DNA of 64,000 nucleotides, taken from contig FUZR01000001.1 of assembly GCA_900167895.1 (NCBI GenBank), positions 477,144 to 541,143 of the forward strand. Direction: 5' to 3'. The position numbers were made by a program, and so were the translations under genes. The notes below the pieces were generated by a model. The model was not told the origin of the DNA. It did no database searches and saw only the letters and a list, made by a program, of their open reading frames with translations. Origin of the DNA: Bacteroidales bacterium WCE2004 (lineage in GTDB: Bacteria > Bacteroidota > Bacteroidia > Bacteroidales > UBA932). Shown here in pieces: positions 18,169-45,612 of this stretch (positions are counted from its first letter, which is position 1; each line of letters starts with the position of its first letter).

Positions 18169-18194
18169 GTCATTCTGAGCGCAGCGAAGAATCT
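18169..18194 (+). repeat. Dispersed 26-bp repeat (TCATTCTGAGCGCAGCGAAG type), copy 1
   Basis: GTCATTCTGAGCGCAGCGAA continuing with GAATCT at 18169-18194. Similar copies lie at 50838-50862, 54259-54284 (inverted) and 55140-55167 (inverted). This repeat type is scattered in intergenic DNA of many bacteria. Here it overlaps the stop codon of the nuclease gene ending at 18193, so its arrival may have set the C terminus. Confidence 0.75.
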
Positions 18195-20814
18195 ACCAGA
18201 GCGAAGCGCTCTGCCGTTCGGCGGCATCCTGCAGGTCAGGCGGCACGTTGACGAAGAAGTTGAATCCCGTCCGCTCCTCGATCGCGTCGATGGTGGTGCG
18301 GAACTTACTGTCGTTGTACTGCTCGCCCTTGTGGGCCTCGTTGGTGAAGACGTAGGCGACGCCCCGGGCGGCCGTCATCCCGCCGGCCGTGTCGAACGAA
18401 CACTTCATCAGGAGCTTGTAGAAATGGCTCGGGATGGGCACGCCGCTCACCTTGTCCGAATCCTCATACAGCACGCCGACCACGACGTAGAGCGTGTCAC
18501 GGCCCGAAGGGGCGTTGCTCTTGACCGACTGCTCCAGGCTGTTCCAGACGCCGTCGTTGAACGAAGTCTGGTACTGGGGCGCCTGGTTGGTGTGGTAGAA
18601 GGTCGCCTTGTTGGCTTCTTTGGTGGCCTGGCGGTAGTTGGACGCCACGAAATGCCCGCGGCTGTAGCCCGACACGCCGCTCTGCTGCCAGGACGAAGGG
18701 ATGGCCGGGTCGTTCTTCCAGCCGTCGTTGCGGCCCACGCCGGTGTCGGGGTAGGCGTCCTTGTGCATCACGAAGGCACTCCAGAGCGGGGCCATCTTGT
18801 TGCCGTCCACCAGGCAGGTGTAGTTGCGGACCGTCTTGCCGCCGGACTGGTAGGTATGCGTGACCACCTTCTGCATCGCGTTGGCCGTCTCGTGGTTGAA
18901 CCACTTGTAGCCGTAGCCGCTGAGTTCGTCGCCCGAGCCGTAGGTGGTGCCGGCCTTCAGGGAGATGGCCGGGATCTCGTAGCCGGACAGATAGGGCCGG
19001 TAGCCGCCCTGACCCGCCGACGAGGCGGTCGTGAAGGACTTGACGGCGCCCTTGTATTCCTTGAGCTCGCCGCCGTCCAGCACCTCTACATAAGCCTGGT
19101 AGAAGTAAGTCGTGGACGCCTCCAGGCTCGACAGGGTCGAGCTGAAGCTCTCCGCGCCGCTGGCGGAGCTGTTCAGGTGCGTCTGCTCCGTGAGCGCGGT
19201 GGACGACGTGCCCCAATAGAAGCCGTAGTCCCGCACGTCCTTCATGTTGGCGAAGCTGCCGGAAAGGACGGCGCCGGCCGTGGTCACGGAGCTGGCCGCG
19301 CCCGTCGTGACCGCAGGCTCGCCGCCCCCGCCCCCGGATGTCCCGCAGAAGACTTCAATGTGGTCGATATAGGTCGCGCCGCCCTCGACGATCAGCATGA
19401 ACTGCCGGACGTCGCCGCCTTCGGGGAAGTCGATCTTCACCGTGGCGCCCTTCTCCGTGCCGGTGCGGACGCAGCCATACTCGGCGGCCCATTCCGTCTC
19501 GGAATACAGGATATCCTTGCCGTTCGCCTGCCCCGTCGGGAGGACGGTCGCGGCCGGCACGGCGTGCAGCGTCCGGTCGGACAGGTTCACGGATTCATCG
19601 CCGGTCAGGGTCACCTCCACCCGGCTGATGCCGGCGGAGAACACCGGAGAAATGACGCAGGCGCCTTTCTTGTTGCGGAGCTGCAGGTACGGGAGGCCGT
19701 TCTTGTTGCGGGCGAAGTTGCCGTTCCAGACACCGGAGGCGCTGGTGATCGAGGCTTCGCCGTAATGCGTGCTCTCGTCCGTCATCGACGCATCCAGGGT
19801 GGCCGCGCAGATCTCGGCGTTGGTCAGCACCGCCTTGTCCGCGTCGCCGCCACCGCCGCCACCGGTGCCGCCACCGCCGCCCAGGCCGTGCTCATCTTCG
19901 CTGCCGAATCCGGGATCGACCAGGACGCTGAAATGGAAGTCGCTGAGGTTATAGACGTTGCCGACCAGGTTGGTGCGGCCGTTGGCCTTGACGGGCACCT
20001 GGCCGACCCTGACGGCGGAGGCCATGCCCGACTCCCGGAAGGAAGTCACGGTCACGGCGCCGGAAGCCGGCACGAGGACGTAGTTCATCCCGATCCACAC
20101 GTGCGAATCCTTGTACTGGCCCACCGCATCGGCCTGGATGGCGTTTTCCGCAAAAGCGATCTCCTCCAGTCCGCTGCCGGCGGCGCCGGCAAACAGGTCG
20201 AAGCTGACCGGCGCCAGCACGCTCATCGCGGAGCTGAAGGAGTCCTGGCCCGCCGGCACGTTATCCGACCGGACGAGCACGTTGAGCTGCGCGAAGGGAC
20301 GCTTCATCGTCACGTCATAGTTCGTCGAGGAAGATTTCACCTCCACGGAGGCGTAGAACGCATCCAGCGACGCGTCGTTGGCCTTGAGGTTGCGCTTGAA
20401 GGCGAAAGACGCCACGTTGCCGTCCGCGAACCGGACGTCATAGGCGCCTTCGCGCATCGCGAAAAAGACCACCCGGCAGTCCTGGTTCCCGGACAGGGTC
20501 AGGGTCACGCTGGCGTTCCTGCCGGAAATCGTCTCCACAGGCTGGAAGCCCGTCCCGCCGATCCGCGAGCACGGCATCAGGGAGCCGTCGCTCCCGGAGA
20601 ATGCAGCCGCATACAACCGGAACTCGCCGGAGGCGTCGTCGAATACCGATGACTCCGGCGCGGCTTTCGTCAGCGCGCTGCCCAGGTCGAGGGAGAAAGT
20701 CACCGGGACCGGCTTGCCGCCCCGTGCGGGATCCTTCAACCCCGGCTCCTTGGCGCAGGACGCCAATGCAAGCGCCGCGAAGGCGGCAAGCAGGGAATAT
20801 ATTATCTTTTTCAT
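18193..20814 (-). CDS. Fimbrillin-like lipoprotein fused to DNA/RNA non-specific nuclease
   Basis: An 873-residue surface lipoprotein. The ATG at 20814 gives a lipoprotein signal (MKKIIYSLLAAFAALALASC). Residues about 30-300 resemble fimbrillin-like Bacteroidetes proteins, with MNYVLVPASG and NGRTNLVGNVYN blocks. A poly-Gly linker leads to a β-rich module (about 320-480), then a FnIII-like module and, in the last 270 residues, a ββα-metal nuclease with SRGH (about 718-721) and TNQAP (about 740). This is the DRGH...N signature of EndA/NucA enzymes. It should cut DNA and RNA outside the cell. It is the last gene of the locus, and its nuclease domain is nearly identical in DNA to 24469-25223. 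Fimbrial assembly is inferred from the N-terminal domain only. Confidence 0.85.
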   Translation of the reverse strand: MKKIIYSLLAAFAALALASCAKEPGLKDPARGGKPVPVTFSLDLGSALTKAAPESSVFDDASGEFRLYAAAFSGSDGSLMPCSRIGGTGFQPVETISGRNASVTLTLSGNQDCRVVFFAMREGAYDVRFADGNVASFAFKRNLKANDASLDAFYASVEVKSSSTNYDVTMKRPFAQLNVLVRSDNVPAGQDSFSSAMSVLAPVSFDLFAGAAGSGLEEIAFAENAIQADAVGQYKDSHVWIGMNYVLVPASGAVTVTSFRESGMASAVRVGQVPVKANGRTNLVGNVYNLSDFHFSVLVDPGFGSEDEHGLGGGGGTGGGGGGDADKAVLTNAEICAATLDASMTDESTHYGEASITSASGVWNGNFARNKNGLPYLQLRNKKGACVISPVFSAGISRVEVTLTGDESVNLSDRTLHAVPAATVLPTGQANGKDILYSETEWAAEYGCVRTGTEKGATVKIDFPEGGDVRQFMLIVEGGATYIDHIEVFCGTSGGGGGEPAVTTGAASSVTTAGAVLSGSFANMKDVRDYGFYWGTSSTALTEQTHLNSSASGAESFSSTLSSLEASTTYFYQAYVEVLDGGELKEYKGAVKSFTTASSAGQGGYRPYLSGYEIPAISLKAGTTYGSGDELSGYGYKWFNHETANAMQKVVTHTYQSGGKTVRNYTCLVDGNKMAPLWSAFVMHKDAYPDTGVGRNDGWKNDPAIPSSWQQSGVSGYSRGHFVASNYRQATKEANKATFYHTNQAPQYQTSFNDGVWNSLEQSVKSNAPSGRDTLYVVVGVLYEDSDKVSGVPIPSHFYKLLMKCSFDTAGGMTAARGVAYVFTNEAHKGEQYNDSKFRTTIDAIEERTGFNFFVNVPPDLQDAAERQSASLW
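18284..19038 (-). repeat. 755-bp direct repeat, unit 1 (nuclease domain)
   Basis: This segment aligns without gaps to 24469-25223, with few substitutions by eye. It covers the nuclease domain and the preceding linker (TASSAGQGGYRPYLSGYEIP). Flanking domains are much less alike, which suggests recent duplication or gene conversion limited to the catalytic part. Confidence 0.8.
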
Positions 20815-20829
20815 CAATACCGTCTAAAA

Positions 20830-22641
20830 TTATTCCGCAGACAATTCCAACGTCACGACCTGCCGCTTCCCGTTCTGCAGGGAAACGACCGCCTCGACCG
20901 TATGCGCACCGGCCGTGAGCGTCACCGACGGGCCGGACACGGCGGAGCCGTCCAGGCGCCATTCGACGCTCGTGTAGGGCAGGTCGGCCACCTCGTTCAG
21001 CGCCAGCGCGAACGGAGAGCCGGCCTTGTAGCTGCCCTTGCCGGGGTTGCTGATGCTATAGTAGGACAGGCCCGCGGACGGCATCGTGACGTGGAACGTC
21101 ACCTGGCCGTCGGCATAGGCGATGCCGCTCAGGGAGACCGACGATTCTACACCGTTCCAGCTCCTGGCGGTATAGGCGGTCACCTTCTTCGCTCCCGGGA
21201 AGGGAATGTTGACCGCAAGCCCTTCGTAGTAAGGATCGAAATAGGACGCCCCGTAGTCAGGCAGGTACTGGTAGCCGTATTTGAGGTTGTCCGGCTCGAT
21301 GGCGGCAACCACATAGTAGCAGGGATGCGCGCCGTTCTCGTTGATGGAATTGGTCTGCTCCCATTTCGACCAGAGGTCGGCGGCAGAGACCTGGCCAAAA
21401 TCCTCGATCCGGACCTTGCGGGAGGATTTATCCACGTGGTAGACCAGCATGCCGTGCGCGGGCAGGCCGGCATCCCAGCCCGAAGCGCCGCGGCACTCGT
21501 AGATGAAGTACTCCCCTTCCTGGTCGGTCAGGGTCTTGTAGGCCTTGTTTTCCTGCACGGGAGGCAGGACATAATCGCCGGACTTGGGGAATTCGGCCAG
21601 GACGCTCCTGTCGAGCCAGCCCAGCAGGATCCGCTCCTCGATGCCGAGGTACGGCGGGATGCGGCCTTCGCCGTTGTAGCTGCCGCCGGACATCAGCGAG
21701 AATTCGAACGGGCCGGCGGCGATCTCGTTCGTGTCGTAATCGGTGTCGTAGAAGTCCGGCAGGCCCATGGCGTGGCCGAACTCGTGGCAGGCCGTGCCGA
21801 TGCCGCACATCTGTCCCTTATAGGTTCCCATTCCTTCCAGCTCGTTGGAACAGGCGTAGCTGTCGACCTTGCAGCCGTCCAGCGTCAGGCTGATGTCGGC
21901 GTTCGAGAGCGACCACTGGTGCGGCCAGATGGAGTCTTCGTCGTCGGAATCCGCCTCGCCGTGACCGGCGTAATACATGAACACCAGGTCCACCTGGCCG
22001 TCCCCGTCGTTGTCGTAGCGGGAGAAGTCGACCTGGCCGTCCAGCGCCTCGCAGGCCTCGGCGACGGCCTGCTCGGGACGCAGGTCGTTGTCGTCGCTGT
22101 CGTTGCCGCCGTAGTAGGCCTTGTCGTGCGAAAGCTTCACGGGGCCGTAGACGTCGAAGACGGGTTCGAACTTGCCCTGGGAATTCTCATAATAGAAGTC
22201 CCGGGCGGAGCCCTTGCCGCCGTTCGCGCTGTAGCCCTGCTGGTTCAGCAGATTGCCGAAGGCCGTATTGGCGTCGGGCGTCTTGAAGTCCAGGTCGCTG
22301 AACGCGACCAGGATCACCAGGAAGTGTTTCTTGTCCAGGGCGATGCCGGAAGCGCGGGGGACGCGGCGCCGGCGCGCCTCGGCGCGGCGCGTCGCGGCCT
22401 GCCGCCGGATCGATTCGGCCTTGGATGCCGGGACGGGCCGGTAGAAGCCGTCGGCGTCTTTGCGGACCACGTTGCCTGCCCCGTCGGTAAGCCAGTGTCC
22501 CCATTCGTCGCCGTGGCGGACCAGGGTAATGGTCGAACCGTCCGGCTGGACATGGCGGAACTTGCCCGGGCGGGCCGGGACGGCATACAGGCTCAGGGCC
22601 GTCAGCAGGAACAACAGGGAAAGGAGAATCTTGCTCTTCAT
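20830..22641 (-). CDS. Secreted M6-family metalloprotease
   Basis: A 603-residue exported protease. Signal peptide MKSKILLSLLFLLTALSLYA is followed by a propeptide-like basic region (about 75-95) and the catalytic domain. The zinc site HEFGHAMGLPDFYD (about 286-299) is typical of the M6 (immune inhibitor A) family, with LMSGGSYNGEG as the Met-turn region. The final 100 residues form a β-sandwich-like tail (VEWRLDGSAVSGPSVTLTAG). It lies inside the nuclease/fimbrillin gene row with 6-16 bp spacings, so it is probably co-transcribed. It might process precursor fimbrillins or strip proteins from nucleic acid; both are inference. Confidence 0.88.
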   Translation of the reverse strand: MKSKILLSLLFLLTALSLYAVPARPGKFRHVQPDGSTITLVRHGDEWGHWLTDGAGNVVRKDADGFYRPVPASKAESIRRQAATRRAEARRRRVPRASGIALDKKHFLVILVAFSDLDFKTPDANTAFGNLLNQQGYSANGGKGSARDFYYENSQGKFEPVFDVYGPVKLSHDKAYYGGNDSDDNDLRPEQAVAEACEALDGQVDFSRYDNDGDGQVDLVFMYYAGHGEADSDDEDSIWPHQWSLSNADISLTLDGCKVDSYACSNELEGMGTYKGQMCGIGTACHEFGHAMGLPDFYDTDYDTNEIAAGPFEFSLMSGGSYNGEGRIPPYLGIEERILLGWLDRSVLAEFPKSGDYVLPPVQENKAYKTLTDQEGEYFIYECRGASGWDAGLPAHGMLVYHVDKSSRKVRIEDFGQVSAADLWSKWEQTNSINENGAHPCYYVVAAIEPDNLKYGYQYLPDYGASYFDPYYEGLAVNIPFPGAKKVTAYTARSWNGVESSVSLSGIAYADGQVTFHVTMPSAGLSYYSISNPGKGSYKAGSPFALALNEVADLPYTSVEWRLDGSAVSGPSVTLTAGAHTVEAVVSLQNGKRQVVTLELSAE

Positions 22642-22647
22642 GGCGCA

Positions 22648-24336
22648 CTACTTTTTGATGACGAAACCGTTGCCGCCCCGGTCGGCGATCCAGACCAGGC
22701 CGCCCTCATCCCGGACCACGGTCATCTGCGCGGTACGGTTCAGCACGGCGGTGGTGCCTTTCTTCCAGAAAACGTCCATGCTGGCCGCATCCCCGGCCCG
22801 CATCGTGTCGGAATAGCCGGAAACGGCCAGCTGCTCATCCTGGTCCGGGTTGAGCAGGACGAAGGTCAGCGCATGGCCGTCGTACTCGCGGACATACTGG
22901 TCCGCACCGGCCACGTAGGCGCGCTCGTTCCCGGGCAGATAGCATCCGGGGACCTTGTGCGAGAGGATGGCTTCGGAATTGTCCGCGCCGTAATGGACGG
23001 TCACCTTGTTCAGGCGCCAATGCCCGGAACCGGTGCTGCGGGTCAGCGTGACCGAATTGGCGGAGCCGGTCCAGACGTGGGTCTCCAGGTCATACGCACC
23101 CGTGTCCACGCCGCCGAAATCGGCCGTGACCGGGCACTTGCCGTCAGAATAGAAATACTCGATCTTCACGATCTCCAGCGCGGAGCTGACCGTGACCGAG
23201 CCGTCGCCATAGATCCGGATGGCGGAACCGGTATTGTAATACTTGCCGTCATTCCCCCCGCCGGCGAAGATGACGGACATGTCGCCTTGCACGAACGGGT
23301 CCGCATACTGCGTGGCGTCCTGCAGGCCCAGCTCGGAGAAAATGATGGTGTCTGAGCCGCCGCCGACAGGCGGGACGGGCGGCGTGTCGCCCAGCTCCTC
23401 TTCCGACCCGAATTCGGAATCCACCTGGACGGAGAAGGAGAAACTGAGCTCTTCGTCATAGATGTTGCCGACCAGGTTGGTCCGCCCGTTGGTGCGCACC
23501 GGCACACTGCCGGGCGCGATCGCCCGGGCCATGCCGGACTCCCGGAAGGAAGTGACCTCCACCTGGCCCGAAGCGGGTACGAGGACATAGTTCATCCCCA
23601 CCCAGCGGTAGGGCTTGGACGCGTCGGCGTATTTGCCGAACGGCGCCGCGGAGATGGCGCTCTCCGCAAAGGCGATCTCGACCGCTTCGCCGGTCGGCGC
23701 CCCCGTCAGGAAGTCGAAGGCCGCCGGCGCCTTCACGGTCATGGACGAGCGGAACGCCGTCTGTCCCGGCGGCACGTTGGCGGCCGGGACGAGGACGTTC
23801 AGCTGGGAGAACGGACGGCGGAGCGTGACTTCGTAGCTGCGGCTCGCAGCGCTCACGTCCACCGACGTCCAGAAGGCGTCCAGCGAGGCGTCGTTGGCCT
23901 GCAGGGCGCTCTTGAAAGAGAACGAGGCGGCGCCGTCCGCAAAACGGACATCATAGGCGCCGGCCCGCTGCGCGAAGAAGACGACCTTGTATTCCCGGCC
24001 TGACGGCAGGGAGAGGGAGACCTCGCCGCCCTGGCCGCCGGCCAGCTCCGCCACGGGGGCGAAGCCCTCGCCGCCGACGCGCGAGGCGGCGGCCAGGGCG
24101 CCGTCAGCCTTGTCGAACGCGGCCACATAGAGCTGGAAGGTGCCGGAGGCGTCGTCCAGCTCCGTGGACGTGGGCCCGCCGGCCTTGGTCAGGACATGCT
24201 TCAGCCCGACCGTGAAGGTCACGGTCCGGGGCTTGCCGCCGCGCGCCGCGTCCGGCCGGAGCGCCTCAGGGGCGCAGCCGGCCAGCAGGGCCGCCGCGGC
24301 AAGTGTCAAGAAGATTCTGTACAAGATCCTGTTCAT
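22648..24336 (-). CDS. Fimbrillin-like lipoprotein
   Basis: A 562-residue lipoprotein. The ATG at 24336 yields MNRILYRIFLTLAAAALLAGC with the lipobox Cys. Residues about 25-300 are closely related to the N-terminal part of the 18193-20814 protein (shared FVGL/FSLDL start, MNYVLVPASGQVEVTSFRES, NGRTNLVGNIY). The C-terminal part is different: a β-sandwich-like module (IYGDGSVTVSSALEIVKIEY) and a last segment without clear relatives. No nuclease motif is present. It may be a structural or binding subunit of the same surface assembly. It precedes the M6 protease by 6 bp. Confidence 0.75.
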   Translation of the reverse strand: MNRILYRIFLTLAAAALLAGCAPEALRPDAARGGKPRTVTFTVGLKHVLTKAGGPTSTELDDASGTFQLYVAAFDKADGALAAASRVGGEGFAPVAELAGGQGGEVSLSLPSGREYKVVFFAQRAGAYDVRFADGAASFSFKSALQANDASLDAFWTSVDVSAASRSYEVTLRRPFSQLNVLVPAANVPPGQTAFRSSMTVKAPAAFDFLTGAPTGEAVEIAFAESAISAAPFGKYADASKPYRWVGMNYVLVPASGQVEVTSFRESGMARAIAPGSVPVRTNGRTNLVGNIYDEELSFSFSVQVDSEFGSEEELGDTPPVPPVGGGSDTIIFSELGLQDATQYADPFVQGDMSVIFAGGGNDGKYYNTGSAIRIYGDGSVTVSSALEIVKIEYFYSDGKCPVTADFGGVDTGAYDLETHVWTGSANSVTLTRSTGSGHWRLNKVTVHYGADNSEAILSHKVPGCYLPGNERAYVAGADQYVREYDGHALTFVLLNPDQDEQLAVSGYSDTMRAGDAASMDVFWKKGTTAVLNRTAQMTVVRDEGGLVWIADRGGNGFVIKK

Positions 24337-24377
24337 ATCACATAAGGTCATATTCATCGCTTTGACATGTCATCCGG

Positions 24378-25505
24378 CTACCATAGCTCGGAGGTGCTGC
24401 TTTCGGCCGCTGCCTGGAGAGAAGCGGGAACCGCAGCGAAAAAGTCGAACCCGGAACGCGCCTCGATGGCGTCGATGGTGGTGCGGAACTTACTGTCGTT
24501 GTACTGCTCGTCCTTGTGGGCCTCGTTGGTGTAGATGTAGGCGACGCCCCGGGCGGCCGTCATCGCACCGTCCGCACCGAACGAGCACTTCATCAGGAGC
24601 TTGTAGAAATGGCTCGGGATGGGCACGCCGCTCACCGTTTTTGAATTCTCATACAGCACGCCGACCACGACGTAGAGCGTGTCGCGGCCCGAAGGGGCGT
24701 TGCTCTTGACCGACTGCTCCAGGCTGTTCCAGACGCCGTCGTTGAACGAGCTCTGGTACTGGGGCGCCTGGTTGGTGTGGTAGAAGGTCGCCTTGTTGGC
24801 GTCCACGCTGGCCTGGCGGTAGTTGGACGCCACGAAATGCCCGCGGCTGTAGCCCGACACGCCGCTCTGCTGCCAGGACGAGGGGATGGCCGGGTCGTTC
24901 TTCCAGCCGTCGTTGCGGCCGACGCCGTTGTCCGGGTAGGCATCCTTGTGCATCACGAAGGCACTCCAGAGCGGGGCCATCTTGTTGCCGTCCACCAGGC
25001 AGGTGTAGTTGCGGACCGTCTTGCCGCCTGACTTGTAGGTGTGCGTGACGACCTTCTGCATCGCGTTGTCCGTCTCGTGGTTGAACCACTTGTAGCCGTA
25101 GCCGCTGGTCTCGTCGCCTGAGCTGTAGGTAGTGCCGGCCTTCAGGGCGATGGCCGGGATCTCGTAGCCGGACAGATAGGGCCGGTAGCCGCCCTGACCC
25201 GCCGACGAGGCGGTCGTGAAGGAACGGACCTCGCCATAAATCGGATTCCCGATGCGGCCCTGACTGTCCTGCAGGCGGACATAGGCGCGATAGTAATACG
25301 TCTCGCCCGCGTCCAGGCTGCCCAGAGACACGCTGAACGAGCCGGAGGTGCCGGTAGCACTTCCGAGATACTCGCTCCGGGTGAGCGAACTGGACGAGGT
25401 GCCCCATTCGAAGCCCCTGTCGTATATGGTTCCGGTCGCTCCTGAAAAGGAGCCCAGCAGGGTGGCCCCTGCTGAACTCAGGTTTTCAGTACCCCCGGTA
25501 ATCAC
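24378..25505 (-). CDS. DNA/RNA non-specific nuclease domain, cut off by in-frame stop
   Basis: A 375-codon frame carrying a FnIII-like module (about 1-95) and a ββα-metal nuclease with SRGH (about 220) and TNQAP. It has no signal peptide. The first possible start is a GTG at 25505, eleven codons after a TGA at 25538-25536 that ends the upstream gene in the same frame. Aligned with the intact paralogue at 18193-20814, this frame is the C-terminal half of one fimbrillin-nuclease protein. It could be a broken gene, be made by readthrough or re-initiation, or reflect a base error in the assembly. As a free protein it would stay in the cytoplasm. Confidence 0.75.
   Translation of the reverse strand: MITGGTENLSSAGATLLGSFSGATGTIYDRGFEWGTSSSSLTRSEYLGSATGTSGSFSVSLGSLDAGETYYYRAYVRLQDSQGRIGNPIYGEVRSFTTASSAGQGGYRPYLSGYEIPAIALKAGTTYSSGDETSGYGYKWFNHETDNAMQKVVTHTYKSGGKTVRNYTCLVDGNKMAPLWSAFVMHKDAYPDNGVGRNDGWKNDPAIPSSWQQSGVSGYSRGHFVASNYRQASVDANKATFYHTNQAPQYQSSFNDGVWNSLEQSVKSNAPSGRDTLYVVVGVLYENSKTVSGVPIPSHFYKLLMKCSFGADGAMTAARGVAYIYTNEAHKDEQYNDSKFRTTIDAIEARSGFDFFAAVPASLQAAAESSTSELW
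24469..25223 (-). repeat. 755-bp direct repeat, unit 2 (nuclease domain)
   Basis: Ungapped partner of 18284-19038 in the same orientation, 6.2 kb apart. Recombination between the two would delete the M6 protease and one fimbrillin lipoprotein and fuse the remaining frames. Confidence 0.8.
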
Positions 25506-25535
25506 GTTGGCCGTGACCTGCGGGGGGATTGCACT

Positions 25536-28325: not shown

Positions 28326-28338
28326 ATAAGGATGGTAG

Positions 28339-30557: not shown

Positions 30558-30589
30558 AGGTTCACAAATAAAAGTGGGACTACTGTTTC

Positions 30590-31651
30590 TTACTGTACAA
30601 TCCGTACGTCGTCCAGGTCGATCAGGGTGAACTGGGCGGCACCGTCATATATCGTGAGGATGCCCGTCACCTCGATCGCCGCCCCGTCCGCCGCAGAGGC
30701 GGAAGGGTCGCCGATCACGGCGGCGGGAATCTCGGCGTCGGCAAACTTGGAATAGCCGCTGGTGCGGATCTGGACCGGGACGTCGCCGAGCGAGAAGTAC
30801 TGGCTCATCGTCACCGGCGAAGCGCCGGCAATCAGGACGTCGAGCACATCGCCCTCGACCCGGCTGCCGCCCTGCGTGGACACGCCGTCGAAATTGCCCG
30901 CGGCGATATACTCCAGCAGCTTGGCCTTGGACATCGCCCAGGTGGTGACGCCATAGGTGCGGTCGCTCAGGAACACGCGGTTCTCCTGGCCATCCCCGGC
31001 ATAGAGGATGGCGAAGATACGCTTGTAGCTGTCGGTGTTGCGGCTCGGCTTGGCGCCGTAGGTCAAGCCCCTGAGGGTCACATAGCTGCCCCAGAGGTCG
31101 CTCTTGAAGCCGCCGTCGGCGAGGGCCTGCTGCAACTCCGCCGCCGTGACGGCGCGGGGCGCGGGCCCTTCGGCCTCACGGCCGCGGAAGATATGCGTGT
31201 CGATCAGGTATTGCGCGTCGATGTAGGCGGTGTCATACTCACCGCTCTCGTCTTCGACACCGAGCTGCGGCATGCCCCTGTAGGAACCCAGCGTGAGGCC
31301 CTTGCAGTCCACATAGACCCACTGGCCCACGTGATAGTCGCTGTAGAGCGAAGACTTGCCCACCTTGATGGCGAGGCCGCCGGTCTGGTCCTGGATATAG
31401 AGTTCGCGGTAGACGTTGCCGCTGCGGTCGCTCGAGACGACCTGGCCGCCGATCACCACGTTGCCCGTGATCTCGACCGCCTTGCCGTTGTCGATGTAGA
31501 GCTGCTTGAGCTCCGCGATGGTCGTGTTGACCACGGCCATCACCGGCTCGCGCACGGGCGGCTCGCCGTATCGGCCCGTGAACACGGGATCCCACTCCTG
31601 GCAGGAAGCCAGCAGCGCGAGGAAAAGGAAGGATGCAATAAGCTTTCTCAT
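30590..31651 (-). CDS. DUF5689-type lipoprotein (OB-fold-like)
   Basis: A 353-residue lipoprotein (MRKLIASFLFLALLASC). A conserved opening, AVVNTTIAELKQLYIDNGKAVEITGNVVIGG, and the β-strand pattern (QDQTGGLAIKVG, YHVGQWVYVDCKGL) fit DUF5689, an OB-fold-like domain found beside TonB receptors and secreted nucleases. A second OB-like segment near the C terminus (AAIEVTGILTIYDGAAQFTLIDLDDV) supports nucleic-acid or ligand binding. It starts 6 bp after the TonB receptor stop, so it is probably the receptor's surface partner in place of SusD. Ligand is inferred. Confidence 0.78.
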   Translation of the reverse strand: MRKLIASFLFLALLASCQEWDPVFTGRYGEPPVREPVMAVVNTTIAELKQLYIDNGKAVEITGNVVIGGQVVSSDRSGNVYRELYIQDQTGGLAIKVGKSSLYSDYHVGQWVYVDCKGLTLGSYRGMPQLGVEDESGEYDTAYIDAQYLIDTHIFRGREAEGPAPRAVTAAELQQALADGGFKSDLWGSYVTLRGLTYGAKPSRNTDSYKRIFAILYAGDGQENRVFLSDRTYGVTTWAMSKAKLLEYIAAGNFDGVSTQGGSRVEGDVLDVLIAGASPVTMSQYFSLGDVPVQIRTSGYSKFADAEIPAAVIGDPSASAADGAAIEVTGILTIYDGAAQFTLIDLDDVRIVQ

Positions 31652-31657
31652 ACGGCG

Positions 31658-34594
31658 TCAGAATCTGAAGTAAACGTTCAACATATAATTGAAACCGCTC
31701 ATATAGAAATACTTGGCATCAAAGCGATAGTAGCGCTCCTTGCCCACGGTGTTGTCCACGAGACGGGTCTGCTCGTAACCGCCGGTCTTGACGTCGCGCC
31801 GGTTGAGCAGGTTCTTGGCGTTGAAGGAGAAACCGAGCTGGTATTTGCGGCCGAGCGACCAGCTCTTGCCGATGCTCAGGTTGAGCAGGCATACCGGCGG
31901 GAACTTCTCCTGCGCCGTCATGTACTCCACCTCGGTCGGGGTCACGATGTTGTCGGGACCGGCCGTGGCGAAGTCGGTGCGGTAGAGCGGGTTCATGCTC
32001 AGGTAGGAGTTCGCGAAATACTCGAAGTCCGCGTCGATGAACCAGTAGTCGTAGTTGTAGGCGAGACCGATGCTGGCGGCCAGCTGCGGCGAACCCGGCA
32101 CGAAGTGCTGCTGGAAATGGTCGATCTCGTCGGTGATCACGCCGCCCTCGTCGCGTTTGAAGACGGGATGGCTCTTCCAGTACGGGATCAGGACCTTGGT
32201 GCGGCCCTCATACTGCACCGGCGCGGCGTTGTTGTCCACCGTCTGCACCATCGTCGGATTGGAGGTGTATTCGTAGCGGCCGGCGCTCAGCACACCCTGC
32301 AGCGCGATGTTCGGGAGCGGGAGCGGGACCTTGAAGCCCACCTCGACGCCGTAGTGCTGCTCGTCGATGCCGCTCAGCGCGAAGTTGGAGAAGGCGTTCT
32401 GCAGGTCGTCGTAGGCGCTCATCACGTCCGTCTGGTCCACCACCTTGGTGTAGTAGCCGGTCACGCGGGCGTTGAAGCCGCCGCCGGAATACTGCCAGTT
32501 GATGTCGCCGGCATAGGTCCGCACGGGCTTGAGGTCGTCGACCACCGAGTCGCGCGTACGCGGCGACAGGTAGGCCGTCGAGAAGTTCGGAGCGTCCTGG
32601 AGCGCGGAAGCGTTGGCGTAGATGCGCATGTGGCCGCCGATCACCCAGCCCATCGAGTACTTGCCCGACCAGGTCAGGAAACGCTGCGCCTCGGACTTGC
32701 CGAACGAAGCAGGCAGCAGTTCGCCGTCCGGGCCGCGGCTGATGTTGACGCCGCCGATGACGAAGTCGCTGCCGTCCGGGCGGAGGCCCGGGAACAGGCC
32801 CTTGCGCACGAGGCCCTCGCGCCAGAAGGTCGTGTAGCCGACGGAGCAGCCCACGTTGGCGCTGAAGTTGCCCAGGGTGAACAGGCCGTTGACCCAGCCG
32901 CCCACCTTGCGCACCTGCGCGTAGTAGTCATAGCCGAACTTGTCGCCCACCCGCAGCGCGCGCGCCGACCCCTGGGCGAGCCAGTAGTCGAGGTCGTTCT
33001 GCGTCTTGGCCTCCACGGATGCATATTCGCGCTCCGCGAAGGAGTCGATGTCCACGTAGTAGTCGCCGCCGAGCAGGTCGGCGACCTTCTTGTAGTATTC
33101 GGTCCGGTTGATCCGGCCGTCCAGGCCGCCGGTGAAGGTGATCTGGTCGTCCACGCGCCACTTGAAGTTGAACGCGAAATTGAGGTCGCGCTGGTCCGTG
33201 AAGCGCTCCTCCTGGATGTACTTCGAACGGGCCAGGCCGCCGCTCTCGATGTTGTTGCGGTTGACGTCGTAGAGACGGTCCCAGTTGAGGTGCGTGATGT
33301 TGGAGAAATGCTCCGGATACATCCAGGCCTCGCGCGCCGCGGCGTATTTGTAAAGGCTGTTGCGTCCGTAGTCGGGATTCTCCATATAGAAGTAGCTCGG
33401 CAGGTTGCGGTAGTAGTCAGGACGCGGGTCTTGCGCGTCGTACCAGTCGAGCGCCGTGTAGCCGTTGTTCCCGAAGCGGTAGAGCACCGTCAGCGAGCCC
33501 TTGAAGGCGTCGGACGGGAAGAAGTCGTATTTCAGGAATGTAATAGGTTCGTGCGTGTTGCGCACGCGCGAATTGCGCAGCTTGCCGTCCTGGTAGCCCC
33601 AGTTGGAGTTGTACATGTTGTCCCCCACCAGGTCGTAGACCTCCTGCGTGGAGGCGTTCTGGGCGCCGCGGCTGCCCGGCGTGCCGAAGGCCGTCAGGGC
33701 GAGCCGGCCCGTGCGCCACTCCTTGGCCACGGAGGCGAAATACGCGAACGAACGGTAGTACTGTCCCGTCACCCAGTCGTTGCCGCCCAGGCGGGCGGAA
33801 GCGGAGAAGGCGTAGGACCAGCCGCTGTCCAGCACGCCGGAGCCGTAGGTGAGCATCAGGCGGAGGCGGTAGCTGGTGCTGTTGGTCATCACGCTCCCGC
33901 GCAGGCCGGTGCGCACGTTGGGCGCGTCGGCGAAGATGTTGGTCACGCCGTTGATGCCGCCCAGGCCGTAGTCGGACACGTCGGCGCCGGTCACGGAGTC
34001 CTTGGTGCGCGTGGCCTCGTTGAGGCCGCTCCACAGGGAGAAAGGCGCGCTGCCCGTCACGGCGTCGTTCATCAGGACGCCGGCGAGGTAGACCCGCTGC
34101 GTCTCGGAGGTATAGCCGCGCACGTTGAAGCGCACGGCGCTGAAATTGTAGCCGGCGAGGCTGTTGAATACGTCGTTCTGGTCGAAGAGCACCGTCGGGT
34201 TGTCGTTGTAGCCCGAATCGCCCATGTCGAACTCCTCGATCATCTCCTCGTTGAAGATCTCGGGACGCGCCTGGCTCAGCGAGATGTTGAACAGGTTGCG
34301 GATGTGGCCGTCCGTGACCGTCACGTTGACCCGCGTCTCCATATAGCCGGTCGCGGAGACCACCAGGTCGTACGAGCCGTCCGCCAGGCCGTTGATGCGG
34401 ATGCGGCCCTCGGCGTCGGCCGTGGCCGCGGCCACCTGCTGGGCGCCGCGGTACAGGACCGCGGAAGCTCCCGGGATGGGCGCGCGGTCGGCGCGGCTGA
34501 AGACCACGCCGGTCACGCCGCCGACCGTCTGCGCGAGCAGGGCGAGCGGGAGCAGCAAGGCAAAGAGTGCCGTTATCAATCTCTTGTGACTCAT
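31658..34594 (-). CDS. TonB-dependent outer-membrane receptor
   Basis: A 978-residue receptor. After the signal peptide (MSHKRLITALFALLLPLALLAQ) comes a carboxypeptidase-regulatory-like β-domain (about 25-105, VVFSRADRAPIPGASAVLY), a plug (about 120-240, FDQNDVFNSLAGYNFSAVRF and VRGYTSETQRVYLAGVLMND) and a long β-barrel ending in YMLNVYFRF, with the terminal aromatic expected for BAM-dependent insertion. It imports a ligand using TonB energy. It is not adjacent to a SusD homologue. The ATG overlaps the stop of the EEP nuclease gene (ATGA). Context points to uptake of nucleic-acid fragments, nucleosides or phosphate. Confidence 0.92.
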   Translation of the reverse strand: MSHKRLITALFALLLPLALLAQTVGGVTGVVFSRADRAPIPGASAVLYRGAQQVAAATADAEGRIRINGLADGSYDLVVSATGYMETRVNVTVTDGHIRNLFNISLSQARPEIFNEEMIEEFDMGDSGYNDNPTVLFDQNDVFNSLAGYNFSAVRFNVRGYTSETQRVYLAGVLMNDAVTGSAPFSLWSGLNEATRTKDSVTGADVSDYGLGGINGVTNIFADAPNVRTGLRGSVMTNSTSYRLRLMLTYGSGVLDSGWSYAFSASARLGGNDWVTGQYYRSFAYFASVAKEWRTGRLALTAFGTPGSRGAQNASTQEVYDLVGDNMYNSNWGYQDGKLRNSRVRNTHEPITFLKYDFFPSDAFKGSLTVLYRFGNNGYTALDWYDAQDPRPDYYRNLPSYFYMENPDYGRNSLYKYAAAREAWMYPEHFSNITHLNWDRLYDVNRNNIESGGLARSKYIQEERFTDQRDLNFAFNFKWRVDDQITFTGGLDGRINRTEYYKKVADLLGGDYYVDIDSFAEREYASVEAKTQNDLDYWLAQGSARALRVGDKFGYDYYAQVRKVGGWVNGLFTLGNFSANVGCSVGYTTFWREGLVRKGLFPGLRPDGSDFVIGGVNISRGPDGELLPASFGKSEAQRFLTWSGKYSMGWVIGGHMRIYANASALQDAPNFSTAYLSPRTRDSVVDDLKPVRTYAGDINWQYSGGGFNARVTGYYTKVVDQTDVMSAYDDLQNAFSNFALSGIDEQHYGVEVGFKVPLPLPNIALQGVLSAGRYEYTSNPTMVQTVDNNAAPVQYEGRTKVLIPYWKSHPVFKRDEGGVITDEIDHFQQHFVPGSPQLAASIGLAYNYDYWFIDADFEYFANSYLSMNPLYRTDFATAGPDNIVTPTEVEYMTAQEKFPPVCLLNLSIGKSWSLGRKYQLGFSFNAKNLLNRRDVKTGGYEQTRLVDNTVGKERYYRFDAKYFYMSGFNYMLNVYFRF

Positions 34595-35691
34595 TTCTTT
34601 GCGGGTTTAGTGCTGACGACGATATACGTAGGATAGTGGTCGCTGTAGCCGTTGATGAAAGCGCCGCCCGACGACGTGCGGAAAGGCGTACCCTTGTACT
34701 GGCCCTCCTGCTGCGTCATGAACGGCTTGTGGAAGATGCGGCCGTAGAACCGGTCCTTGACGATCGGGATGATCCCGAGCGTGCCCTTGCGGGGACGGAC
34801 CAGGTTGGAGTTGACCACGATGATGTCGTAGATGTTCCACTCGCCCTGGTAGGCGAGCGAGCCGTAGCCGGCCTTGAGCATCGACAGGAACGGGGAGAAG
34901 AAGTCGTCGTCCCGCACTTCGGAAATGCGCTCCTTCGCCCGCATATATTTGAGCATGCTCTCGTCGGACGGGTTGTCGTTCATATCGCCCATCGCAACGA
35001 TCTTGATGTCAGGATATTGCTCCATCAGCGCCATCGACTCGCGGTACATGATCTCGCCGCCGCGGGAACGCAGGTCGCCGCCCTTGCCGCCGATACGCGA
35101 CGGGAGGTGCGCCACGAAGAAGGCGAACATCTCGCCGCCCAGCAGGCCGCGCACCATCAGGATGTCGCGCGTGCGGAAGTCCGCCTGCTCCTCGGGGGTC
35201 ATGTCGAAGGTGATGTCGCTGCCCGCGAACGTGAACGGGATCGAGCGGCTCTCCAGCACCTTGAACACGCTGGGCCGGTAGAGCAGCGCCACGTCCACGC
35301 CACGACGGTCGGGACCGTCGAAATGGACGATCTGGAAATCGGCCTCCGCGATCTCGGGCTGGATCACCAGGTCCTCGAGGACATGGCGGTTTTCGATCTC
35401 GCTGACGCCCAACACGGCGTGCCAGACCTTGTTGTCCTCCTTCATCGCCCGGATCACCGAGGCCATGTTGTGGAGTTTCTTGGCATATTTGACTTCGGTC
35501 CACTGGTTCGCGCCGTCGGGCAGATACTCATAGTCGTTCTTGCCCTCGTCGTGGTAGGTGTCGAAGAGGTTCTCGAGGTTGTAGAAGCCGACCACGTAGT
35601 TGCGGCCGCCGCGCTGCGCCTGGGCGGGCGCGGCCAGCGCCGCCCACAGGACGACGGCGGTCAGAAGGCCGTATAGAACTGTCTTTCTCAT
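34591..35691 (-). CDS. Secreted endonuclease/exonuclease/phosphatase-family protein
   Basis: A 366-residue exported enzyme; the ATG at 35691 starts the signal peptide MRKTVLYGLLTAVVLWAALA. The EEP (DNase I-like) active site is visible: FYNLENLFD (Asn), GVSEIENR (metal-binding Glu), HLPSR, MGDMNDNPSDES (Asp/Asn) and GYSDHYP (catalytic His). Relatives cut DNA, RNA or phosphoesters. Gene order (10 bp after a NUC1-type nuclease, 4-bp overlap with the TonB receptor) suggests that it trims material for uptake. Substrate is not determined. Confidence 0.88.
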   Translation of the reverse strand: MRKTVLYGLLTAVVLWAALAAPAQAQRGGRNYVVGFYNLENLFDTYHDEGKNDYEYLPDGANQWTEVKYAKKLHNMASVIRAMKEDNKVWHAVLGVSEIENRHVLEDLVIQPEIAEADFQIVHFDGPDRRGVDVALLYRPSVFKVLESRSIPFTFAGSDITFDMTPEEQADFRTRDILMVRGLLGGEMFAFFVAHLPSRIGGKGGDLRSRGGEIMYRESMALMEQYPDIKIVAMGDMNDNPSDESMLKYMRAKERISEVRDDDFFSPFLSMLKAGYGSLAYQGEWNIYDIIVVNSNLVRPRKGTLGIIPIVKDRFYGRIFHKPFMTQQEGQYKGTPFRTSSGGAFINGYSDHYPTYIVVSTKPAKK

Positions 35692-35701
35692 AGCTTCACG
35701 A

Positions 35702-36877
35702 TCATTGCCACCACCAGTTGACGGTGGAAGGTTTCTCAGACTTGATGTTCGTCGCGGCGACTTCGCCCACCGCGTCGGACAGGTTGACAAAAAGCTTGTA
35801 CCCGAGCCGCTCCTCCAGGGCCGCTACGGAGAGCGACTCGTTCTTGGAGAAGTTCCGGGGGAAGCCATCGTGGTTATACCAGAACGCCGCCGCCATATAG
35901 CCTGCATGGCCGATGGTGGCGTCCTTGCGGTAGCGGAGCACCGCCTTGTAATAAGCGGTCGGGACGGTGACCTTGTTGTTGCTGCGGTCGTACACATAGT
36001 GCACCGCGCCGTCGGTCACGCAGCCCGTGACGACGTAGAGCGTGTCGGAACTGTTGGCCCAGCTGCGGACCCGGCCCTCGAGGGTCGCCCACACGCCGGC
36101 GTTGAAGTCGTTGTTCTGCGGGGTGATGTTGGTGCCGTAGAAGGTCGTCGCGTTGAGCGTTTCGTTGGCCGTGCGGTCGGCGGACGGGAGCTGGTGCCCG
36201 CGGGCGTACCAGCCATTGTCGCCCTCCTTGTAGCCGCCGGACACGTTCGACTGCTTCGAGGCGGGCAGGAGCGGGTCGTACCCCCAGGCCTCGCTGCGCC
36301 CCGAGGAGCCCAGGTAGACCCGGCAGAGCGGGTAGGCCACCCAGTGCGAGACGCGGTTCGTATAATCCCAGTAGTAGGCGTAGTTGCGGAGCGCCTTGCC
36401 GCCGATCGAGCAGGAGCGGGAGAAGAAGTCCATTCCGTCGTAGGCGGACGTGGCCGGGAGCTCCAGCCAGTGCGGCAGGGCCGTCTGGTTGCCCGGGCCG
36501 ACGACGCCCGGGGCGGCGCCCGGCTCCTGCGTCAGCTCGACCGAGGCCGTGGCCAGGCCGGTGTCGAGCACCAGGCGGAGCTTGCGCGGCGCCACGCCGG
36601 TGTTGGATTCATAGGACAGGACGACGTTGTTCTTCGGGCCCATGCCGGTTGCCGGCGAGACGGAGGCCCAGCCGGCGCCGTCCGCGATCTCCAGCACCCA
36701 CGGGCCGTCGGTCCGGACGCTCACGAACGCGTTCCCCGCCTCGGCGGGAAGCGTCGTCGAAGCGACCTCCAGCGACGCCGCGTCGCTGAGCATCGGCGGC
36801 TTCAGCCCCTTCGTACAGGAGCTCAGCAGCGCCGCTGCAGCCAGCAGGAACAGCAGGATATGCGTTTGATGTCGCAT
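35702..36877 (-). CDS. BACON-domain DNA/RNA non-specific nuclease lipoprotein
   Basis: A 391-residue lipoprotein (MRHQTHILLFLLAAAALLSSC). A BACON-like domain (about 30-115, VSVRTDGPWVLEIADGAGW) precedes a ββα-metal nuclease domain with YARGH (about 224) and GTNITPQ (about 250), the RGH...N catalytic pattern. It differs clearly from the two nearly identical nuclease domains at 18 and 24 kb and lacks a fimbrillin part. BACON domains usually bind carbohydrate or mucin; here one might fix the enzyme near the cell surface. It sits between the OB-repeat protein (11 bp) and the EEP gene (10 bp). Confidence 0.88.
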   Translation of the reverse strand: MRHQTHILLFLLAAAALLSSCTKGLKPPMLSDAASLEVASTTLPAEAGNAFVSVRTDGPWVLEIADGAGWASVSPATGMGPKNNVVLSYESNTGVAPRKLRLVLDTGLATASVELTQEPGAAPGVVGPGNQTALPHWLELPATSAYDGMDFFSRSCSIGGKALRNYAYYWDYTNRVSHWVAYPLCRVYLGSSGRSEAWGYDPLLPASKQSNVSGGYKEGDNGWYARGHQLPSADRTANETLNATTFYGTNITPQNNDFNAGVWATLEGRVRSWANSSDTLYVVTGCVTDGAVHYVYDRSNNKVTVPTAYYKAVLRYRKDATIGHAGYMAAAFWYNHDGFPRNFSKNESLSVAALEERLGYKLFVNLSDAVGEVAATNIKSEKPSTVNWWWQ

Positions 36878-36888
36878 AGGTCAGGCTA

Positions 36889-38985
36889 TTAATTGTCTTT
36901 CAAATAAAGCTGAAGCAGAGTGCCGTCAGCAGGGACCGACGAGGCGCAGCTGAAATTCGTATAAGTGCCACCGCCATGATAAATCGTCTTGCCGGTGGAC
37001 TTGTGGGAAATCTTGAACAGGTCGCCCGACAATTCAGCAGTAAACGTGTGGTCGAAGCTGTCTCCGATCTGGAAAGTCCCGTCATGCTCCGTATCCACGG
37101 CCAGCTTGCGGCCGTCAGGCATGGCGATCTCGTAACCACCGTTGACGGCAGTGATCGTAAACTCGTTCGCAGCCAGGTCGGCGGTGATCTTGTCGCCGCT
37201 GACCGAGATTTCCTTGCCGTTCAGACGGCCATAGGTCTTGTCCGAAGCGATCGGCGTCGCAGCATAGTACTTGCCTTCCTTGACACCGACAAGGATGTAC
37301 TTCCCGCCAGCAGTGATCGAGCTGACCTTGGAATAGGAGATCTGCGTCTGGCCGCCACCGCCGCCGCTGCCGCCCCCGCCCTCGGTGACGCCGTTGAGCG
37401 AGTAGATGTAAGCTTCTTTCGAGGCTGTTTCCGGCGTACCCTGATAATTCGTCAGTTTGCCGCAGACGATGACCTCATCTCCGACCTGAACCTGCTTGTT
37501 TCCCTCTGCCCAGTCGGTATTACCAAGATACTTCACACTGTAGCACTGGAACTGGTCGCCAGAAGCGTTCCCGTCATCCGAGATGAAGAACGTCGCCGTC
37601 TTGTGCGTAGCATCAAACGGATATTTCACCAGGCAGATCTTTCCCTTCACATACACATCCGTGGCCGTTTTCCCACCTTCCGCCAGCGCGGAAGCGACAG
37701 CAATCGCCCCGGCAGCATTGTACGGATCGGTCAGAGTTCCGGTACCATTGGCTGTACCGCCGCCACCGCCACCGCCGTTGCCGCCACCGCCTTCGGTGGT
37801 GCCGTTGAGCGAGTAGATGTAAGATTCATTGGCCACCGTTTCCGGAGTTTTCCCATTGAAATTCATCAGCTTGCCGCAGATAATCACTTCGTCTCCGACT
37901 TTAATCTGCGTATTGCCCTCCTGCCACTTCGCATTCCCGAGGAAAAGGGCTCTATAGACATAGAACTCGTTGCTTGCACTTCCGTCATCGGAGATATAAA
38001 ATGAAGCATTGCCGAACTGCGCAGTGAAGACCTGCTCGACATTATTCTTGTCGACGGCAATACGGGAAATCTTGCCCTTTATATATACGTTGTCAGATTT
38101 CTGATAATTATCCTTATCCGTATATGTCAGCGTAGACGCGGCGGCGTTGGCCGCGGCGGCGTTGTACGGGTCGGCCTGGGTGCCGGTGCCCTGCGGCGTG
38201 CCGGTATTGCCGCCGCCACCGCCGCCGCCCTCTGTCTCGCCGTTGAGCGAGTAGAGGTAGGCCTCGTTGGCCACGGTCTCAGGCGTGTTGCCGCGGTAGT
38301 TCATCAGCTTGCCACAGATGATTACCTCGTCGCCCACCTTGATGTCCGTGCCGGAAGTATACTTCTTGTTGCCCAGGTACAGGACGCGGTAGCAATAGAA
38401 TTCCTTGTCGCCCGTGGCGCCGTCGTCGCTGATATAGAAGTTGCCATTGCCGAAAGTGCCGGTCTGGGCGAAACTGCCGTTTTCGGCAATCCTGCTGATG
38501 ATACCCTTGACATATACGACTTCCGTCGCCTGGTACTCCGTGCTACTCGTCCACGTCAGGTTGGCCACCGCCGCAAGCGCGCCTTCGACCGTGTACGGGT
38601 CATCCAGCTTGCCTGTGCCGTTGGACTTCGCGCCCTTGGCGCCCTTCTGGTTGACGGTCACGGCGGCCTTGGACAGGCCGATCGAGAAGACGACGTCGCC
38701 CGAACGGTCGTAGCCGGCGTTGTCCAGCACCGTGAGCGTCACGCGCTGAGGTGCGGACGAAGCCGGACCGTGGTCCGGATCGATCGCGACCCAGTCCGGT
38801 TTGCTGCGGACAAGCCACTCGCGGGAGGCCGTGACGTCCACGGTCTGCTCATTCGACTGCTGCCCGAATTCAAGGGACTCCGTCCCGACACGCAGGTCAG
38901 GCAACACATAGTCCTCATCCTGCCGACATCCGGAGAATAGGAGTCCGGCAGCCAGGATGGCTGCAAACAAGGTCTTGATTTTCAT
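36889..38985 (-). CDS. BACON plus triple OB-fold-like repeat lipoprotein
   Basis: A 698-residue lipoprotein (MKIKTLFAAILAAGLLFSGC). A BACON-like domain (about 35-120) is followed by three tandem repeats of about 130 residues (roughly 125-255, 265-400, 410-540). Each contains a VYVKGKIS...FYISDDG...YLGN...VGDEVIICGKLMNY...YSLNG framework like an OB fold. Runs of up to nine glycines separate them. A C-terminal β-domain (about 545-698, ITAGGKYILVGVKEGKYYAA) completes the chain. OB folds commonly bind single-stranded nucleic acid, which fits the neighbouring nucleases. It is the first gene of the locus, downstream of a strong hairpin. Confidence 0.85.
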   Translation of the reverse strand: MKIKTLFAAILAAGLLFSGCRQDEDYVLPDLRVGTESLEFGQQSNEQTVDVTASREWLVRSKPDWVAIDPDHGPASSAPQRVTLTVLDNAGYDRSGDVVFSIGLSKAAVTVNQKGAKGAKSNGTGKLDDPYTVEGALAAVANLTWTSSTEYQATEVVYVKGIISRIAENGSFAQTGTFGNGNFYISDDGATGDKEFYCYRVLYLGNKKYTSGTDIKVGDEVIICGKLMNYRGNTPETVANEAYLYSLNGETEGGGGGGGNTGTPQGTGTQADPYNAAAANAAASTLTYTDKDNYQKSDNVYIKGKISRIAVDKNNVEQVFTAQFGNASFYISDDGSASNEFYVYRALFLGNAKWQEGNTQIKVGDEVIICGKLMNFNGKTPETVANESYIYSLNGTTEGGGGNGGGGGGGTANGTGTLTDPYNAAGAIAVASALAEGGKTATDVYVKGKICLVKYPFDATHKTATFFISDDGNASGDQFQCYSVKYLGNTDWAEGNKQVQVGDEVIVCGKLTNYQGTPETASKEAYIYSLNGVTEGGGGSGGGGGQTQISYSKVSSITAGGKYILVGVKEGKYYAATPIASDKTYGRLNGKEISVSGDKITADLAANEFTITAVNGGYEIAMPDGRKLAVDTEHDGTFQIGDSFDHTFTAELSGDLFKISHKSTGKTIYHGGGTYTNFSCASSVPADGTLLQLYLKDN

Positions 38986-41524: not shown

Positions 41525-42052
41525 CCGGGCACGTTTAGGCCCCATTTTGTGCCCGACAACCCAAAATTCTCCTCCCCGGGCACGTTTGAGCCCCTTTTTG
41601 TGCCCGGCAACCCCGGCTTTTTCTCTCCCTGGCAGCCACCTTGCTTGTCGGCAACGGGCACTCCGTCCGAGAGCTCCAACTCTCGGACGGAGATCGCTCG
41701 TAACCGTCGGACGCAACGTCCGGCGGTGGTGCCAAATCCTGCCCAGCCTCACCAGGCTCGTTCGTTTTTCATAAACATCACATCATCAATACCTTGCGCG
41801 AACTAACTGGTTCATTTTTCACCCCATCACTTTCCTTAAGCACCTATCCACAAACAACTTACGAAAAACACCCACCAACCCTTTCCGGGCAGCTGCTGCT
41901 TTTCCCAGCCTCTTTCTTCTACATAATGGGAACGGGCCGTTTTTGTAAGTGTTTGTTAGTGTGAATGTTGTGATTTTGCTCCGGGGAATTTTCCCCTGAG
42001 CAAAATTGGAAGTTATTGAGAATCATGGATATGTAAAAACGGGGTGCAGTGA
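41525..42052 (+). repeat. Structured dispersed element, copy B (about 528 bp, non-coding)
   Basis: Inverted counterpart of 5999-6525. Two 38-bp units at its left end (41525-41562 and 41576-41613) each form a CGGGCAC/GTGCCCG stem; copy A has one degenerate unit. Then come a perfect 13-bp stem CTCCGTCCGAGAG (41661-41673 with 41680-41692), a CCGTCGGAC stem (41704-41712 with 41718-41726) with one G-U pair, and ATTTTGCTCCGGGG (41973-41986 with 41993-42006, one mismatch). CCGTTTTTGTA at 41937-41947 is shared with copy A. The plus strand here is the orientation in which all pairings and wobbles fit. No ORF is credible. Confidence 0.75.
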
Positions 42053-42120
42053 GGATGGTGAGGACGGTGGGGACGGTAGGGACGGTGGGGACAGCGGGGC
42101 CGGGCGGGCGGACGGACGGA
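42053..42120. repeat. Purine-rich imperfect tandem repeat
   Basis: Imperfect 9-10 bp units of GGTGGGGACG type run from about 42053 to 42110. On the minus strand this is a pyrimidine tract and lies on the same side of the element as the tract at 5884-5990 does for copy A. Confidence 0.6.
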
Positions 42121-42144
42121 GGAGGATATGTGCGGAGATTTTTG

Positions 42145-42152: not shown

Positions 42153-42157
42153 CAGAG

Positions 42158-45606: not shown

Positions 45607-45612
45607 GCGGCT

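Follow-up and report, generated by a model that had tools for sequence, protein, structure and literature searches.

Type IV pilus/PilQ DNA uptake, with pilus and secretin, serves the outer-membrane step of natural transformation in other Gram-negative bacteria. For Porphyromonas gingivalis, a 2024 paper stated that this step 'remains unclear' and that a type IV pilus-like conjugation pilus is uninvolved (PMC11532111). The closest described system is that of Riemerella anatipestifer, in which natural transformation was studied by a transposon screen (PMC8459023). Transformation stood at 5.4e-5 and fell below the detection limit (average 4.2e-10) on markerless deletion of either RA0C_RS04915 or RA0C_RS04920; in the authors' proposal, RS04920 is the DNA-binding and RS04915 the DNA-carrying protein. 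That report describes homologues of the new genes as widespread in Bacteroidetes, especially Flavobacteriaceae, and also states that RS04915 homologues were found in Flavobacteriaceae only; it mentions RA0C_RS04910 only as an upstream gene with unaffected transcription. This last gene was not named in any other paper of the open-access literature searched. Mutants of tonBA and tonBB of Riemerella also showed lowered transformation (PMC8383284). Here we describe a related locus on a 64,000-nucleotide stretch of Bacteroidales bacterium WCE2004 (assembly GCA_900167895.1, contig FUZR01000001.1, positions 477,144 to 541,143 of the forward strand), called the window below. The locus, positions 30590-38985 of a gene cluster at 18193-38985, is predicted to encode an outer-membrane DNA importer for natural transformation, a reading to which we give a cautious preference because the Riemerella homologues of its barrel and its DUF5689 protein abolish transformation when deleted.

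The cluster comprises twelve open reading frames, all on the minus strand and spaced by -4 to 32 bp; an apparent overlap of -89 before the EEP gene became a 10-bp gap once the EEP start was set at the ATG at 35691. A first-pass annotation, made from the letters alone, had taken the whole of it as a single unit of about 21 kb. The common strand and close spacing agree with this, but the 21 kb form two modules, since only 30590-38985 (module A) recurs across the loci examined, while 18193-30557 (module B) is specific to the lineage.

For a direct comparison, the Riemerella genes were located through a published comEC primer (PMC8383284), which matched exactly in 2 of 26 genomes of one family. 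In genome G296 both published comEC primers lie inside the ComEC gene, with exact matches, and the spacing of recA, comEC, EEP, barrel and DUF5689 genes, counted in open reading frames, is exactly that of the tags 04870, 04895, 04910, 04915 and 04920. Because of the exact primers and the identical spacing, G296 can be taken as R. anatipestifer or its nearest kin. The Riemerella proteins carry DUF5689 (4.6e-56), Exo_endo_phos_3 (2e-99) and Competence domains. The window barrel aligns with its Riemerella counterpart over the full length (27.8% identity over 1014 aligned positions, 1e-90), and the EEP protein shows 29% identity (7e-54) to the Riemerella neighbour counted as RA0C_RS04910. Similarity between the DUF5689 proteins is limited to the N-terminal OB region (35% over 131 positions, 1.5e-13). 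In a tree of 59 barrel sequences, built by a quick method without bootstrap, the window, two Riemerella and 42 other sequences separated from 14 paralogous receptors with an SH-aLRT of 100. Of 59 orthologues, comprising the 45 from the tree and 14 from the window's own family, 54 contain the motif G[FY]EQxR, vs 0 of 14 paralogues. Taken together, the sequence comparisons identify the window barrel and DUF5689 protein as homologues of RA0C_RS04915 and RA0C_RS04920. Arginine conservation in the barrel (8 of 70 conserved columns vs 6 of 135 in paralogues) was too weak a signal and was dropped.

Gene order was compared in 58 loci, one per genome and without the window itself, each spanning at most 20 kb, so that more distant copies would be missed. 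Forty-four of them were made up of 20 from the 38 genomes (own included) with a barrel at E<1e-60 among 247 genomes of the phylum, 20 from 100 orthologues in the order, and four from Riemerella and its kin; the other 14 (L092-L105) came from 23 matches in the window's family, which include its own genome and two already sampled. L001-L010 cover pieces of loci already included and remained uncounted. Adjacency was counted by script in the 44 loci and read from the printed gene order in the 14. A DUF5689 gene lies directly downstream of the barrel in 41 of the 44 and 13 of the 14 loci (54/58), and an EEP gene directly upstream in 31 and 13, respectively (44/58). Among 631 open reading frames, 31 of 34 EEP matches occupy this one position, 27 of them divergent and four co-directional. 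In the family loci the order EEP-barrel-DUF5689 is kept in 13 of 14 and NUC1-EEP-barrel-DUF5689 in 12 of 14. No DUF5689, EEP or NUC1 match was found in the stretches examined around the 14 paralogous receptors used as controls (L078-L091), of which L083 ends just upstream of the receptor. Because of these adjacency counts, as against none at the paralogues, the EEP gene is a conserved partner of the transformation-essential pair. The same figures bear on the explanation that unrelated outer-membrane genes merely happen to adjoin, which we consider highly improbable: it is refuted for the DUF5689-barrel-EEP core and stands for module B and recA, which are adjacent here and almost nowhere else among the loci examined. 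Conservation beyond close strains, proposed as a check in the first-pass annotation, therefore holds for the core, with barrel-DUF5689 recurring across the class.

At the genome level, the 38 of 247 phylum genomes with a barrel at E<1e-60 all belong to the window's class. The barrel was found in 144 of 148 genomes of one related family (E<=1e-60) and in 100 of 198 of the window's order (E<=1.3e-125). With 23 of 59 genomes at E<=1e-100, its occurrence in the window's own family is therefore patchy. The control loci represent another TonB-receptor family of the order, which is paralogous to the barrel and has neither DUF5689 nor EEP genes beside it.

Module A starts with OB698 (36889-38985), a 698-aa lipoprotein with a BACON domain and three OB-like repeats (PF01336 1.8e-11, PF19190 1.4e-5); its lipobox FSGC-RQDED and the three repeats were read from the sequence. 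A counterpart occupies the equivalent place in L038 and L039, and in 6 of the 14 family loci (L092-L095, L100 and L101) a recognisable homologue precedes NUC1. It is followed by NUC391 (35702-36877), a NUC1 lipoprotein (Endonuclease_NS, PF01223, 1.2e-34) with a BACON-like domain below the Pfam cut-off. The nearest solved relative is the nuclease 2o3b/1zm8 (1.6e-16), with ARGH, TN and LE aligned. Of the 14 family loci, 12 have a NUC1 gene in this position; outside the family, NUC1 is present in 6 of the 44 loci. The EEP nuclease/phosphatase (34591-35691, 366 aa; PF19580, Exo_endo_phos_3, 5e-90), the only EEP protein of the cluster as already annotated, has intact NLEN, EIEN, GDMND and SDH motifs and a signal peptide read from the sequence. 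The 978-aa barrel (31658-34594) gave no TonB-receptor match in Pfam, where only CarboxypepD_reg at the N-terminus and weak others were found. Its earlier designation as a TonB receptor is nevertheless upheld by the structure model and fold search, which predict a TonB-dependent transporter with a large beta-barrel and an N-terminal plug, and by the RA0C_RS04915 homology and the tree. The last gene encodes the DUF5689 lipoprotein (30590-31651; PF18942 5.5e-43), modelled with an AF2 pLDDT of 89.8 as tandem OB folds. The top Foldseek matches of the model were RPA-DNA, HIN-200 and CST; the predicted fold thus looks like that of DNA-binding proteins, and the lipoprotein is proposed as a candidate surface DNA receptor. 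Sequence search of the PDB gave no full-length relative of the barrel and none for the DUF5689 protein (E<=1) or the window EEP (E<=0.01).

The following mechanism can be proposed. The tandem-OB DUF5689 lipoprotein and the OB/BACON lipoprotein would capture extracellular DNA, probably at the surface, and the NUC1 lipoprotein, whose domain and motifs are present, may nick or cut long DNA and so give ends. The plug-containing barrel would then move the DNA over the outer membrane, presumably powered by TonB as the Riemerella tonB mutants suggest, and the exported EEP protein may trim or process it on the periplasmic side, after which the helix-hairpin-helix (HHH) protein, ComEC, DprA and RecA would act on it. 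The first-pass annotation had likewise proposed that the cluster binds, cuts and imports external DNA or RNA; the Riemerella genetics and the tandem OB fold support DNA import, while no support was found for RNA as substrate. The competence nucleases EndA and NucA are non-specific endonucleases proposed to prepare transforming DNA, a role comparable to the one suggested here for a PF01223 lipoprotein encoded in an outer-membrane operon. BtuB-BtuG and SusCD are TonB-dependent transporters with lipoprotein lids, but here the lipoprotein is predicted to be of the OB-fold type, there are nuclease partners and no SusD, and the proposed cargo is DNA. Compared with the type IV pilus/PilQ, the same step would be served, with a TonB-type transporter predicted in its place.

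The Riemerella system resembles that of the window in the plug-barrel with CarboxypepD_reg, the DUF5689 lipoprotein directly downstream and the EEP gene next door, and in both genomes an HHH protein, ComEC, DprA and RecA are present. Some differences were observed as well. The EEP gene is divergent in Riemerella and co-directional in the window, the NUC1 nuclease and the OB/BACON lipoprotein are additions in the window, and searches of the window DUF5689 protein showed no choice-of-anchor J domain. The window HHH protein (47408-48475, minus strand; ComEA-like, PF12836 3.7e-23, TIGR01259 3e-10 and below cut-off), which has an N-terminal hydrophobic segment, is homologous to the three-HHH protein of Riemerella that was taken to be RA0C_RS02645 (phmmer 108 bits). 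In the relative G399, the likely HHH counterpart is located on a different contig from the barrel.

Several observations weigh against a role in transformation. The ComEC of this genome (G000 C1:647336-648043, L072) amounts to little more than a recognisable channel domain and is smaller than that of Riemerella, which also lacks Lactamase_B but carries DUF4131; two other family members have a ComEC match that crosses a stop (frames of 397 and 371 aa). All five genomes of the order without a ComEC match (G393, G421, G436, G503, G523) carry the barrel. When 13 barrel-positive genomes were searched again, ComEC was found in eight, six of them in frames of 371-566 aa, and in none of the other five. 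The window DUF5689 protein scored 67 bits against a cut-off of 475 for NCBIfam NF052645 (M949_1556) and was not assigned to this lipoprotein subfamily, while the Riemerella protein (L033 15731-17134) belongs to it with 599 bits. recA linkage was absent from 42 of the 44 loci and all 14 family loci. P. gingivalis, the relative with proven competence, was not reached: a 16S fragment matched 51 of 198 order genomes, the best of them at 87% identity across most of the fragment, the published 16S primer led to an Erythrobacter contig only, and searching by a guessed genus gave 0 of 23. Two of the five ComEC-less genomes share one genus. The M949_1556 gene has reportedly been studied for virulence.

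The ComEC results in particular are relevant to the main rival explanation, by which the same machine takes in DNA fragments produced by the surface nucleases, chiefly as a source of phosphate, carbon or nucleosides rather than for recombination. Besides the minimal ComEC and the barrels in genomes without any ComEC match, the three NUC1 domains and one EEP protein in a single cluster would suit such scavenging, and the drop in Riemerella transformation in the absence of phosphate (PMC8383284) fits loosely with a link to phosphorus metabolism. It has to be set against this that Riemerella needs the homologues for transformation, that RecA, DprA and the HHH protein are present, and that the Pfam scan of the twelve open reading frames gave no nucleotidase, nucleoside transporter or phosphate uptake family. 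Neither was SusD, the partner expected of a SusCD system or polysaccharide utilisation locus, among these matches, as had been noted earlier. We consider nutritional scavenging doubtful, and the same holds for the earlier idea of a nucleic-acid counterpart of a polysaccharide utilisation locus, for which there is little specific support, the only genetics found on the family being concerned with transformation. ComEC presence, with a match in 193 of 198 order genomes, was uninformative as a discriminator. An association between ComEC length and the barrel (75/75 long frames in barrel-positive genomes vs 62/75, p 1.4e-4; none below 600 aa) had been drawn from 150 listed ComEC frames that omitted weak scorers, and it was dropped because the repeated search revealed short frames or no match in barrel-positive genomes. 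As a result of this recount, transformation went from fairly probable to only somewhat probable in our estimate, and nutritional scavenging gained.

Module B opens with a DUF3575 protein (29319-30557; PF12099 3.2e-33) with a weak OmpA-like N-terminus below cut-off, followed by a DUF6562 lipoprotein (28339-29322; PF20200 1.5e-31), presumably pilin- or anchor-like. The 929-aa lipoprotein at 25536-28325 (Fn3_assoc/CHB_HEX; PF13290 7.9e-25) combines a pilin-like N-terminus with OB-like and BACON-like regions, as read from the sequence, and terminates at an in-frame TGA. Next come the second NUC1 frame (24378-25505; PF01223 1e-35), which has no signal of its own, a pilin-like lipoprotein of 569 aa (22648-24357) recognised from its sequence with no Pfam family at cut-off, an M6 family metalloprotease (20830-22641; PF05547 6.5e-19, TIGR03296 2.3e-59), and an 874-aa pilin-like lipoprotein with C-terminal NUC1 (18193-20817; PF01223 6.3e-36, PF20200 0.001 and below cut-off). 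The three NUC1 domains annotated before are thus real, each with RGH and TNxxPQ motifs, but the second is not a gene in its own right: it shares its frame with the preceding 929-aa gene, with a single TGA (25536-25538) intervening, and three relatives of 1249-1347 aa align in one frame to both parts, which points to one reading frame broken by the TGA. For the 874-aa protein, the N-terminal part alone was shared by 43 of 49 relatives checked (P0255-P0303; 53-73% identity), the common region being the N-terminal third; none of these 43 alignments rests on NUC1, and for many of the 43 relatives Big_2 or OB domains are listed. The pattern is that of a pilin-like carrier whose C-terminal cargo can be exchanged, and the module as a whole can be described as a putative set of pilin-like surface proteins, two of its reading frames with nuclease domains.

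Within the 58 loci, no open reading frame matched the DUF3575, DUF6562, 929-aa or 569-aa proteins at 1e-5, matches to the 874-aa protein were NUC1 genes, and an M6 homologue occurred in L047 only. Because its proteins are nearly unmatched across these loci, module B is a lineage-specific addition, and the pilin-like, M6 and extra nuclease genes that the first-pass annotation had placed in the system are not part of the conserved module. Its nuclease-fused pilin-like lipoproteins and M6 protease would be in keeping with a surface nuclease cluster directed at extracellular DNA of biofilms or neutrophil traps, with an unrelated cargo for the receptor. Such a cluster is improbable as an account of the locus, as conservation does not extend from module A to module B and barrel-DUF5689 occurs without NUC1 in most loci outside the window's family. 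In L047, the M6 homologue (4e-74) and an EEP gene (1529-5511) are found a few genes downstream of barrel-DUF5689.

PMC8459023 already covered the two Riemerella genes and their spread among Flavobacteriaceae, and offered a speculative model. The nuclease partners conserved alongside the pair, the predicted OB fold and the full-length barrels of Bacteroidales go beyond it. Neither the conservation of EEP and NUC1 as partners, nor the DUF5689 OB fold, nor an account of the Bacteroidales operon was found in the open-access literature searched, subscription papers and preprints lying outside this search, and DUF5689 itself was named there in PMC8459023 only. The one pair with genetic proof, that of Riemerella, is hereby connected with genes conserved as a set in further families of the class, with a predicted DNA-binding type of fold for DUF5689 and two candidate nuclease partners. 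More tentatively, and with slightly less than even confidence, a TonB-energised transporter, an OB-fold DNA receptor and their own nucleases may constitute a general outer-membrane DNA importer of Bacteroidia that replaces the type IV pilus and secretin, to which Bacteroidales like the present one would have added an operonic NUC1 nuclease. Among the Pfam matches of the cluster there was no type IV pilus family, the rest of the genome not having been searched for them. For DNA importation by module A, the preferred reading, the outcome is a concrete prediction on how Bacteroidales acquire genes, including those for resistance.

Upstream of module A, and also on the minus strand, a trpS/tyrS-like tRNA synthetase gene (39053-40207; PF00579 2.7e-53) follows after a 67-bp gap, and recA (40207-41235; PF00154 1.2e-141) lies 1.2 kb away; uptake genes and recA may share transcription in this genome. 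Outside the window this linkage was seen in two Riemerella genomes only and was rejected as a conserved feature. Minus-strand open reading frames at 42023-47249 were dropped: they have no Pfam family, and plus-strand RlmN-like, patatin/Omp85 and RecX genes occupy 42128-46122; for the minus frames at 46320-47249 the opposite strand was not among the regions checked. A patatin-Omp85 fusion gene and recX (43039-46122, plus strand) lie opposite these family-less frames. Farther along, a tyrosine recombinase gene is located at 49777-50778, and 51002-53962 encodes an HD-CE protein of 986 aa that matches HATPase weakly.
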